Positions 6,541 through 64,000 of a stretch of DNA of 64,000 nucleotides are shown piece after piece. The position numbers and the translations under genes are program-made. The notes under the pieces were generated by a model. It ran no database searches. It saw nothing but the letters and a program-made list of their open reading frames with translations, and was not told the origin of the DNA. Location: positions 202,349 through 266,348 of the forward strand of contig CACZJU010000001.1 of the NCBI GenBank assembly GCA_902781515.1. The letters are read 5' to 3'. Positions within the stretch are counted from its first letter, which is position 1. Each line of letters begins with the position of its first letter. This DNA comes from an uncultured Bacteroidales bacterium (GTDB taxonomy: Bacteria; Bacteroidota; Bacteroidia; Bacteroidales; Bacteroidaceae).

Positions 6541-6943
6541 TGGTGGAGCCGGAGGGGATTGAACCCTCGTCCAAACAGGGAAGTCCTGAGCTTTCTACAC
6601 GCTTATCTTGGTCTTGGTTTTCGTGCGGCGGCAAGACCCAAGCCACCAACCGTCGCCTTATCCTCTAAAGTTTCGCCAAACGTGCGAGGCCGCGTATGAC
6701 TATCCCCGATTTTGCTGTGCCACTTTGCCAGAGCGCTTCAGGGCGTTAGCCTCTGAGTGACATCTCGTTGCAGCACCTGGTGCCGCAATTAAGCTTCTGA
6801 TCTACTATACTTCAATCAAGCAGCGAGAGCGTAAGTGTTTTCGCCAGTTAATTGTTCGAAGGTCATTGATTATAGAGAGCGGCCGCCAACTCTCTGCGTG
6901 CTTACCGAGCACCCCATCCTGCTGTCAAATCCATGTCGACCCC
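6541..6943 (-). ncRNA. ssrA: tmRNA (ssrA), one-piece
   Basis: Rescues stalled ribosomes by tagging incomplete proteins. The 3' end encodes CCA and a T-arm with GGTTCAATCCC. The acceptor stem forms from 5' GGGGUCG and 3' CGGCUCC (seven pairs including G-U). The 5' part carries the typical GGATTTGACAGCAGG. The tag reading frame at 6845-6816 reads GENTYALAA followed by TGA, with GGC as the likely resume codon. This resembles the GETNYALAA/GENNYALAA tags recalled for Bacteroides and Porphyromonas. Length is about 403 nt. Confidence 0.96.
6816..6845 (-). other. tmRNA proteolysis-tag reading frame
   Basis: Codons GGC GAA AAC ACT TAC GCT CTC GCT GCT TGA give the tag GENTYALAA. The terminal ALAA is the expected protease recognition end. 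Confidence 0.92.
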
Positions 6944-9317: not shown

Positions 9318-9320
9318 ATA

Positions 9321-9353
9321 ATTATCAATTGTCAATTATCAATTATCAATTAT
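9321..9353. repeat. Degenerate 7-mer array (TATCAAT type)
   Basis: Tandem units TATCAAT, TGTCAAT, TATCAAT, TATCAAT between the lipoprotein gene and the Wzi-like gene. The right end overlaps the last codons of the latter. Confidence 0.75.
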
Positions 9354-13802: not shown

Positions 13803-13837
13803 CAATTGTTAATTGTTAATTGTCAATTCTTAATTCT
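13803..13837. repeat. Degenerate 7-mer array (ATTGTTA/ATTCTTA type)
   Basis: Tandem units ATTGTTA, ATTGTTA, ATTGTCA, ATTCTTA, ATTCTTC fill the 27-base gap and overlap the last codons of the upstream MFS gene. Confidence 0.75.
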
Positions 13838-16389: not shown

Positions 16390-16431
16390 CGAAAAAACGA
16401 GTGGAAATGCAAATTTTATTTACAATTTGCG

Positions 16432-16676
16432 CGTTACACGTTACACATTACAGTTTTATATTTGCGGGGTACTTATGGGAGTTGATAATGGATAATTGAA
16501 AGTAGAGTGTAAAGATTTTTTATTTATTATTATTTATTTTATAATTATAAATTATTATATATAATATTATTATAATAATATATAATTTATTATATATATA
16601 TTATAAGTCTATATATAGCTTAGTAGGGGGGTGCCAATATTTTAATTGTAACGCGTAACGCGTAACGCGGCACCCC
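16432..16676. repeat. Structured heptamer/AT-core element, copy 1
   Basis: Fills most of the 457-base gap between the MFS and proS genes. Left arm: CGTTACA, CGTTACA, CATTACA (16432-16452). Right arm: TGTAACG, CGTAACG, CGTAACG (16647-16667), an inverted copy matching at 18 of 21 positions. Between them is AGTTTTATATTTGCGGGG and a ~105-base core made almost only of A and T with nested palindromes (16513-16618). The right arm lies in the loop of a hairpin with stem GGGGTGCC / GGCACCCC (16628-16635 and 16669-16676). The second copy is at 63604-63775. Confidence 0.75.
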
Positions 16677-16680
16677 ACAC

Positions 16681-16745
16681 AGGTTAACTTATCAGGAGAG
16701 AGAGGTTAACTTAATATATAATTAAAGGTTAACTTAACCTGTGGC
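16681..16745. repeat. GGTTAACTTA direct repeats
   Basis: Three copies of AGGTTAACTTA (near 16682, 16706 and 16727) between structured element 1 and the proS terminator. The outermost parts, CAGGTTAA and TTAACCTG, are inverted with respect to each other. Confidence 0.65.
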
Positions 16746-16776
16746 CACAAGGAGTAGAACCTTGAGCCCTTAAACC

Positions 16777-18344: not shown

Positions 18345-18354
18345 CAAAAGAAAT

Positions 18355-18383
18355 AAGAATTAAGAGTTAAGAATTAAGAATTA
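18355..18383. repeat. Degenerate AATTAAG 7-mer array
   Basis: Units AATTAAG, AGTTAAG, AATTAAG, AATT between the divergent proS and OmpA-family promoters. Confidence 0.75.
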
Positions 18384-22786: not shown

Positions 22787-22834
22787 TCACCCTTAATCCC
22801 AATTCTTAATTCTTAATTCTTAAATTTTAATTCC
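22784..22834. repeat. Mixed 7-mer array between HPrK-like and S26 genes
   Basis: CACCCTTAA-type units followed by TTAATTC units (three copies). It fills the only gap in an otherwise start/stop-overlapping operon. Confidence 0.65.
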
Positions 22835-26883: not shown

Positions 26884-26917
26884 CAATTTTCAATTTTCAA
26901 TTTTCAATTTTCAATTT
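26884..26917. repeat. CAATTTT 7-mer array upstream of rnpB
   Basis: Four perfect CAATTTT units plus CAATTT, ending eight bases before the rnpB -7 box. Confidence 0.85.
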
Positions 26918-26944: not shown

Positions 26945-27307
26945 GAAGAGAGCATGCCGGCTTGTCGCTGGTCACTTACGTAGTGGCGAGAGGAAAGTCC
27001 GGGCAACATAGGGCAATCCGCTTCCTAACGGGAAGAAGTCCGCGAGGGCTAGTAGATGCAGAAGAGAATGACAGCCCATTATGGGTGATGGTGAGAAGGT
27101 GGGGTAAGAGCCCACCAGGCGTATGGCGACATGCGTGCTGTGCATCCCGGATGTTGAAAGTTCATGTATACCGGCGTTTGAGGGCGGCCCGTCCGAGCTG
27201 GAGGGTAGAACGATAGAGGCCGACTGGTGACAGCGGCAGTAGATAAATGACAGGCGTCCGCCGCTTGCGGTGGAAACAGAACCCGGCTTACAGGCAAGCT
27301 CTCTTTT
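26945..27307 (+). ncRNA. rnpB: RNase P RNA, bacterial type A
   Basis: Catalytic RNA of RNase P, which matures tRNA and tmRNA 5' ends. The diagnostic P4/CR-I sequence GAGGAAAGTCCGGGC is near 26990. AGATAAATGACAG followed later by ACAGAACCCGGCTTACA forms the 3' conserved region. The 5' GAGAGC pairs with GCTCTC at 27298-27303 to close P1, and the T run after it serves as terminator. Length ~360 nt. Long reading frames crossing it on either strand are chance. Confidence 0.97.
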
Positions 27308-45793: not shown

Positions 45794-45878
45794 GTTAATA
45801 TTATCTATGCCTATAGGTTAATATTATCTATGCCTATAGGTTAATATTATCTATGCCTATAGGTTAATATTATCTATG
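45794..45878. repeat. 23-bp perfect tandem repeat, 3.7 copies
   Basis: Unit starts at 45794, 45817, 45840 and 45863 (last copy 16 bases). Each unit has GTTAATATTATC followed by TATGCCTATAG; the junction gives the palindrome CCTATAGG. There are no unique spacers, so it is not a CRISPR. It lies in the 236-base gap between the kinase-like gene and nifJ. Confidence 0.92.
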
Positions 45879-63602: not shown

Positions 63603-63603
63603 G

Positions 63604-63775
63604 TATACAGTATACAGTATACAGTTTCTATTTGCATGGGTGTGTATGCTTACTTAATAATAATATATAATAATATTATATATTATTATAATTACTTATA
63701 GGCACTATCTCAAGACAGGTGAGGTAACGCATTTTAAAACTGTATACTGTATAACTGTATACTAAACCTCACCTG
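63604..63775. repeat. Structured heptamer/AT-core element, copy 2
   Basis: Left arm: three perfect TATACAG heptamers (63604-63624). Right arm: CTGTATA, CTGTATA, A, CTGTATA (63740-63761), a perfect inverted copy with one inserted A. Between them is AGTTTCTATTTGCATGGG, similar to the segment in copy 1, and an AT-only palindromic core (about 63653-63698). The right arm is in the loop of a 10-bp stem CAGGTGAGGT / ACCTCACCTG (63716-63725, 63766-63775). Copy 1 is at 16432-16676. Confidence 0.8.
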
Positions 63776-63896
63776 CCATTCTCAAGATGACACTTAAATG
63801 CCTGATTATTAACACAATGTAAAAATATGTATTGAGTAATATGGGGTGTTTCAGGAGATATTTACGCGTTTACTTGATTTCGCCTCTCTGATGTTG
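63776..63896. other. Intergenic segment without recognised gene
   Basis: No supported coding sequence or hairpin is seen between structured element 2 and the promoter-like box at 63897. Base composition is AT-rich with no obvious repeats. Confidence 0.5.
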
Positions 63897-63904
63897 TAAT
63901 TTTG
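63897..63904 (+). promoter_or_regulatory. -7-like box before the hairpin array
   Basis: TAATTTTG, reading toward the right window edge. If active, the transcript would begin near 63911 and contain the hairpin array. Confidence 0.5.
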
Positions 63905-63933
63905 CGTTAGAAACAAAAAGGAAGCGAGGCGAG

Positions 63934-64000
63934 TGGCTGCCGCGGCAGGTTGCCCAACCTATGACGATAGGTTCGCCAGCTTATGACGATAAGCTCGCCA
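63934..64000 (+). repeat. 22-bp hairpin-unit array at the window edge (continues outside)
   Basis: Two clear units: AACCTAT-GACG-ATAGGTT (63956-63973) and AGCTTAT-GACG-ATAAGCT (63978-63995), each followed by CGCC. The period is 22 bases. Their stems differ at two pairs (A-T to G-C, C-G to T-A), both compensated; the loop GACG is constant. A looser third unit at 63934-63955 (CTGC-CGCG-GCAG, then GCCC) keeps the same register. The next unit would begin at the last base. 22 is not a multiple of three, so it is unlikely to be coding. Confidence 0.75.

Follow-up and report, generated by a model that had tools for sequence, protein, structure and literature searches.

Dispersed hairpin repeats with matched arms of changing sequence in Prevotella-type Bacteroidales

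How do the two arms of a non-coding hairpin stay matched when the word that they carry changes from one copy to another? For hairpins, MITEs and structured RNAs alike it has long been asked how stems go on pairing as their sequence changes, and the question was raised here by two elements in a 64,000-nucleotide stretch of DNA from an uncultured Bacteroidales bacterium, the whole of which is called the window below. A family of this kind provides dozens of natural replicates in a simple repeated word, from which arm-to-arm copying could be read directly. Our preferred reading, to which we give a probability of roughly 0.55, is that the elements are non-coding dispersed hairpin repeats belonging to one superfamily in Prevotella-type Bacteroidales, with arms kept matched by template switching and slippage and copies spread by a separate activity.

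Architecture of the elements and their copies in one genome

Copy 1, a member of family A, extends from its left-arm edge to its right stem end at 16427..16676 by our reading of the layout (this and all following window features are on the + strand), and 16427, position 28 of the query, is also where the BLAST matches from copy 1 to three other copies begin. The left arm, CGTTACA CGTTACA CATTACA (16432..16452), was recognised by layout and by descriptor; it is followed by CAGTTTTATATTTGCGGGG and runs into an inner motif, ACAGTTT..TTGCGGGGTA (16450..16472), that is common to other 7-mer-class members in several genera. An AT-rich palindromic core (about 16515..16606) precedes a stem with halves S1, GGGGTGCC (16628..16635), and S2, GGCACCCC (16669..16676), both of which occur in all four family A copies, with seven instead of eight pairs in one of them. 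The S1/S2 loop holds ATTTTAA and the right arm, composed of inverted heptamers TGTAACG... (16647..16667). Beyond the stem, the segment GGTTAACTTA..AACCTGTGGCCACAAGG (16681..16766) resembles the 3' part of the downstream module of other copies, with identities of 84% (49 bp) and 88% (58 bp) to the C4a and C4b flanks, respectively.

Copy 2, of family B, spans 63603..63775 from left arm to right stem end. Three GTATACA words (63603..63623) are followed by CAGTTTCTATTTGCATGGG and the AT core, after which come S1, CAGGTGAGGT (63716..63725), which is unlike the S1 of copy 1 in sequence, the right arm of inverted TATACAG words (63740..63763; layout and descriptor) and S2, ACCTCACCTG (63766..63775). 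Sequence reading placed a downstream module at 63871..63951, consisting of promoter-like GATTTCGCCTCT..TTTTGCG and then GCTGCCGCGGCAGGTT, which is 95% identical over 37 bp to the module of the copy on contig C11. Downstream of several elements, at 63925-64000 of the window and in the flanks of the C2, C7 and C13 copies, short hairpins stand in arrays; their stems vary and their loops are alike (CTTATGACGATAAG, CTATGACGATAG, ..GGCGAT..).

The original prediction had given both elements one layout, and direct reading together with a descriptor (tandem arm of 7-9-mers, AT-rich core, inverted partner arm) bore this out at the places named. The two copies were the sole descriptor matches in the 64 kb window, and none were found in three order-2 Markov resamples of it, which led us to reject a chance origin. 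It had also been claimed that the arms match within each copy; they do so at 18 of 21 ungapped positions in copy 1 (three of 21 differ), and local alignment matched 22 of 26 columns in copy 1 and 28 of 30 in copy 2, but the match is imperfect, the right arm of copy 2 having a 1-base indel that is common to its sister on C13. The heptamers of the two copies (CGTTACA and GTATACA) do differ, as had been said, but this is a difference between subfamilies and not between any two copies.

Neither element contains an ORF of ≥100 aa. The Pfam matches of the 48 window ORFs scanned, the larger and non-overlapping ones, included no transposase or reverse transcriptase family, in agreement with the prediction that the window has neither. 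At gathering score, Rfam matched only RNase P and tmRNA in the window, with no match for the hairpin elements; the RNase P RNA (class A) and tmRNA genes lie at 26949-27306 and 6541-6943. Separate AT-rich tandem heptamer arrays, mostly within or adjoining short intergenic gaps, were seen at 1826-1857, 2742-2773, 9320-9353, 13804-13835, 18348-18383, 22801-22833 and 26884-26917 (words GAAAATT, AATTTTT, AATTATC, AATTGTT, AAGAATT, AATTCTT and CAATTTT).

In the 2.46 Mb genome from which the window comes (G000; 46 contigs, 86% complete), BLAST found four family A copies (copy 1, two on C4 and one on C11) and five family B copies (copy 2, one on C13 with both arms, and partial copies on C5, C12 and C17). 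The CGTTACA-type word is common to the A copies and the GTATACA word to the B copies, so the word is inherited with the copy and is a trait of the subfamily; left-right arm differences of the same kind persist across the A copies. The three partial B copies are cut by contig ends, and copies there may therefore be under-counted. An autonomous copy at the C5 and C12 ends was rejected, since both finish in the same 98 bases and there was no further copy among the matches listed.

Two further repeats were seen in this genome. The C11 copy of family A (L022, about 2150-2251) has about 14 tandem GGTAAAT/GGTAATT heptamers between its left arm and core, an array not seen in its three fellow family A copies. 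C2 (L055, about 1910-2085) and C7 (L056, about 1776-1951) each carry one copy of another repeat family, with TACGACAAATA as inverted ends around a similar AT core.

Relatives, downstream modules and orthologous sites

Relatives of the two elements were recovered by opening the word. First-pass searches matched only the own genome among 150 in one case, and the own genome and two of 138 congeners in another, the two congener matches both lying at apparent ribosomal-protein-like genes and neither a true relative. Exact patterns had no match in viral contigs, the first of them had none in genome contigs, and plasmid and phage records held no match to the one relative element tested. A left-arm pattern with the word mostly open found 22 stretches in the genome collection. 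Among the twelve that were read, L103, L106, L114 and L123, all from MAGs titled Prevotella or Prevotellaceae, are clear relatives in which the right arm matches too, and L120 has inverted GTTTACA-type arms; the others looked like plain heptamer arrays or unrelated sequence.

The genomes behind seven loci were then searched with one element, giving 40 stretches (one of them a filler). Pooled with the window, the four named loci and the copies from the own genome, these made up a 164-kb set. The descriptor matched at 36 places in this set, the window and some duplicate views included, and at only 2 in ten resamples of the non-window loci. The typical element is a near-palindrome, mostly of 120-290 bp, with about three tandem 7-9-mers per arm, and the 7-mer class has the inner motif CAGTTT...GCGnGGGGTA. 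Words among the relatives include GATTACA, GAATACA, GTTTACA, ATATCAG, ATGACAG, AGTCATT, GGGACAT and CGCACAG, and the 8-mers GGGACAAT, GTTACGCA, GGCGTTTA and AGTGCGTC.

An inner-motif pattern matched eight of 399 genomes of the family, own included. The descriptor accepts two of the nine loci outside the own genome, L225 and L227. The latter, from a congener, has seven left arms, six of them within a 55-bp array, plus two right arms, and L232 contains part of a similar array. Arms identical over 30 bases, missed by the descriptor, are present in L230, which comes from another genus of the family. Single arms only were present in L223 and L228, and L224, L229 and L233 were chance-like. The 55-bp tandem array of L227 is the left arm and inner motif amplified. 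The proposal to search related genomes for the layout was rewarded among congeners, in MAGs labelled Prevotella and in a different genus of the family, and the outcome that would have made the resemblance a coincidence, unrelated spacer in relatives, was not what was found: layout and matched arms occur together elsewhere.

A module of about 190 bp, made up of a promoter-like ..GTACCTTTGCATTGTCAA and a conserved RNA-like stretch, often comes after the hairpin in the Prevotella MAGs. Of 299 genomes of that genus, 18 matched in a search with the module alone, both source genomes among them; as no more than two candidates were scored in any one genome, copy numbers are lower bounds. At least 28 module places were obtained, of which one was the query, two were already known and 25 were taken as loci L198-L222. 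The descriptor matched upstream of the module in 18 of the 25, with arms identical over the 21-24 bp compared in nine; one of the 18 (L218) is weak and another (L199) is the L123 element again. The tandem right arm is truncated by a contig end in L210 and L217, L201 has a one-armed hairpin, and no descriptor match was found in L211, L221 and L222, each >3 kb, nor in L203. In the module-found loci the order is hairpin first, module second.

Different hairpins occupy orthologous sites. L202 and L205 are the same site in two genomes, with flanks 82% identical over 1.3 kb on the left and 89% over 1.65 kb on the right, and one carries CTTGCATT arms and the other AGTCATTT arms, with differing cores; L155 and L201 have locus-specific flanks in common and hairpins of different classes. 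In both pairs the differing hairpins stand upstream of the same module. In the own genome, a GTCATT-class hairpin resembling that of L156 precedes a family A-type module at C13:42492 (seen by eye; the descriptor misses it). Across two genera, hairpins of the same two classes are coupled with different modules. There thus seems to be more than one way in which hairpin classes and modules are put together. These orthologous sites and the two-genus coupling suggest a bolder reading, in which the hairpin would be a swappable cassette before a promoter-RNA module and the arm word a heritable specificity tag. An enzyme would read the structure and the inner motif of the hairpin, and the word would be rewritten jointly on the two arms. 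We hold this to be rather unlikely; if true, it would be a previously undescribed mobile two-part system in Bacteroidales.

The module also bears on whether the hairpin might be copied through RNA, with a reverse transcriptase or retron-like enzyme writing both arms. A promoter and an RNA-like stretch do lie downstream of the hairpin in the module-anchored loci, but the promoter is directed away from the hairpin, Rfam gave only two matches in seven related loci, both below gathering score and neither relevant (with no relevant match for the module), and the one module RNA copy folded was of unremarkable stability (z -0.6). Copying of this kind strikes us as highly improbable.

Sites lacking the element, which the original prediction had proposed to look for in relatives, were found at proS. 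The search for the gene succeeded in 128 of the 139 genomes that represent the genus, the own genome among them, and in the best 29 congener loci, with the proS end placed in 27, the descriptor found no hairpin element after proS in any (29/29). The spacer after proS is about 445 bp in the window by the ORF list; in three congener loci (L075, L080 and L086) the ATG of the apparent next gene of the window lies within a few bases of the proS end, and other loci have a short spacer or another repeat-like stretch. Presence and absence at orthologous sites, as in MITEs, fits insertion and not decay.

Matched arms and mirrored changes

Within 48 distinct elements the median arm score was 46.5, and between them it was 16 (1128 pairs). 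The 33 elements that were anchored at CAGTT or CAATT and prefiltered at ≥14/21, the other 15 being dropped, had an arm identity of 18.6/21 against 11.2 under permutation (maximum 13.6), and 0 of 20,000 permutations reached the observed value; in 13 non-redundant rows it was 18.2/21 against 9.5 (again 0 of 20,000). Excluded from the 48 were L156 and other 6-mer matches of <0.8 identity, L218, a heptamer match in L022 lying off the arms, the second L178 match and core duplicates. Preselecting matched arms inflates arm identity, which is why the module-anchored set matters, and as the script accepts matched arms only, mismatched relatives are under-counted (L211, L221 and L222 being without a match).

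Homologous copies differ by changes that are mirrored in the two arms, which upholds the claim that arms stay matched while changing between copies, as do the relatives with other words and matched arms. L209 and L220, from one genome, are 78-79% identical over core and module, and their arms, of GAATACA and TATACAG type, differ likewise on both sides; L213, from another genome, has the word ATATCAG and a core that can be aligned with theirs. Gaps aside, the arms within each copy match at 24 of 24 (L209), 25 of 25 (L220, with one displaced unit base) and 24 of 24 positions (L213), and between copies the arms are 88% (L209-L220) and 67% (L209-L213) identical. Similarly, L154 and L156 carry AGTCATT and TTGTCAT words on both sides of one shared core, although the arms of L156 itself match at only 26 of 30 positions. 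Irregular arms are likewise exactly matched in L177, L204, L162 and, over its 30 bases, L230. As evidence to the contrary, one 8-base unit is placed differently in the two arms of L183, L185, L215 and L220.

In 30 of the 48 elements another copy's arm is a better match than the element's own partner, as is expected if subfamilies expand faster than arms change; homogenisation would thus be slow relative to the spread of copies. Over seven homologous pairs, arms were 66-100% and cores 58-91% identical, with arms not consistently the faster to change, and the idea that the arms are hypervariable was dropped for this reason.

One alternative is that selection acts on pairing itself, the hairpin working as RNA or ssDNA and ordinary compensatory mutations maintaining complementarity. 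Both window copies have predicted folds much better than expected (z -3.3 for copy 1 and z -7.8 for copy 2, each beating all 200 dinucleotide shuffles), and the S1/S2 stems of families A and B differ in sequence yet remain complementary. Compensatory changes made singly, however, poorly explain how one base change comes to be present simultaneously in the tandem words of the two arms, and the stem is dispensed with in places: S2 is missing from the C13 family B copy, and no S1/S2 was seen by eye around the right arm of L106. The arm mismatches of 31 oriented elements comprised 31 transversions and 29 transitions, with wobble-type (G-U) mismatches numbering 11 on one strand and 18 on the other, a count that omits the 17 unoriented elements of the 48 (11 transversions, 8 transitions). 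No clear wobble bias is apparent in these small numbers, which fits DNA-level copying better than RNA pairing. We are doubtful that selection on pairing accounts for the elements.

The arms would match trivially if several unrelated MITE families of the ordinary sort were present and the terminal inverted repeats of each belonged to a different transposase. Arms are indeed common within a subfamily (in the copies of genome G203 and in the A copies), and the differing hairpins at an orthologous site could have arrived by independent insertion. Such an origin is nevertheless quite unlikely, in our judgement, given that elements with different words have homologous cores, inner motifs or downstream modules, that the words differ by mirrored changes with unit-level irregularities agreeing between arms, and that a search for Y1 enzymes found no subfamily-specific transposase.

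Arms could also be homogenised by recombination between them, through inversion or gene conversion recurring at the inverted repeats in the manner of invertible promoters. A short segment does lie between inverted arms of about 20-35 bp, and copy 1 has the -7-like TATATTTG in its left inner motif. Inversion would alter little in an interior that is mostly an AT palindrome, though, and words that differ from copy to copy do not suit any one recombinase site; we regard recombination of this type as very unlikely.

Template switching and slippage, the preferred reading, would work as follows. A long quasi-palindrome would be corrected during replication, the nascent strand folding back so that one arm is templated from the other, and unit slippage would carry a base change through the tandem words. 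This would explain the tandem words, the spread of changes to both arms, the matching irregular units and the absence of a clear wobble bias. According to PMC8794818, stems can arise through template switching in inverted repeats and can have their pairing restored in this way. The pattern that such a process leaves in quasipalindromes, arms alike within a copy and mirrored between related copies, is present between subfamilies, not between recent sister copies. Concerted evolution, or copying of one arm from the other, had been put forward in the original prediction; the mirrored changes support it, and the arm-to-arm copying step itself we infer from them.

Mobility and comparison with known systems

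Template switching and slippage do not explain dispersal, and copies may spread as non-autonomous elements by a separate activity. The elements look mobile. The co-occurring enzyme that had been suggested was not found in a genome-wide search, which covered Y1 transposases: PF01797 was not found in G000 (86% complete), G198, G199, G203 or two congeners, and was found in the carriers G200 and G202 and also in 5 of 14 control genomes. A RAYT/IS200 mover was rejected as the general driver, no Y1 transposase having been found in the own genome and in three of five other carriers. No target-site duplication was evident when the flanks were compared by eye, the right end being blurred by the shared module that follows. 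No parent or autonomous transposon with shared ends was found; three B copies break at contig ends, and a longer copy could therefore be absent from the assembly.

Readings as CRISPR, integron attC or retron were set aside on layout alone, and no description of these elements was found among the open-licence PMC papers listed in the searches. In BrickBuilt of Porphyromonas gingivalis (PMC4596501), an internal 23-nt minisatellite accompanies features that are also seen here, namely occurrence in Bacteroidales, intergenic position, tandem repeats with inverted ends and long predicted stem-loops. In our elements, by contrast, the inverted arms are themselves made of the tandem words, which vary, and neither copy 1 nor copy 2 has a 23-mer array, the core being an AT-rich palindrome. 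Elsewhere in the window, a perfect 23-bp tandem repeat of 3.7 copies (45794-45878) is BrickBuilt-like in unit length. TAACTGA repeats, reported from some Bacteroidetes, are likewise heptamer tandem repeats in intergenic DNA, but they are direct repeats of one fixed heptamer, and the portion of PMC4679880 available describes no inverted partner arm, core or hairpin such as those found here.

REPs are palindromes tagged GTAG or CGTC, the GTAG REPs being tied to RAYT transposases, and REPINs, or REP doublets, resemble the present elements in being short dispersed units with two inverted arms that form one long hairpin and with several subfamilies per genome (PMC3733652). As described there they differ from our elements, in which the arms are tandem direct repeats of 7-9-mers and the word changes between subfamilies. 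Neither palindromic GTAG- or CGTC-tagged arms nor a RAYT in the genome was found; some relatives' inner motif contains GTAG, and that of copy 1 does not.

We therefore file the elements as a new variety of small mobile bacterial hairpin repeats, MITE/REPIN-like in kind. MITEs are multicopy, AT-rich elements of a few hundred base pairs with inverted ends. The present elements share this size, copy number, composition and inverted ends, but unlike MITEs they have an inverted-end word that is not fixed. It would seem, then, that a dispersed bacterial repeat can do without a fixed recognition sequence at its inverted ends, a complication for the annotation of repeats and a hint that whatever moves the elements reads structure.
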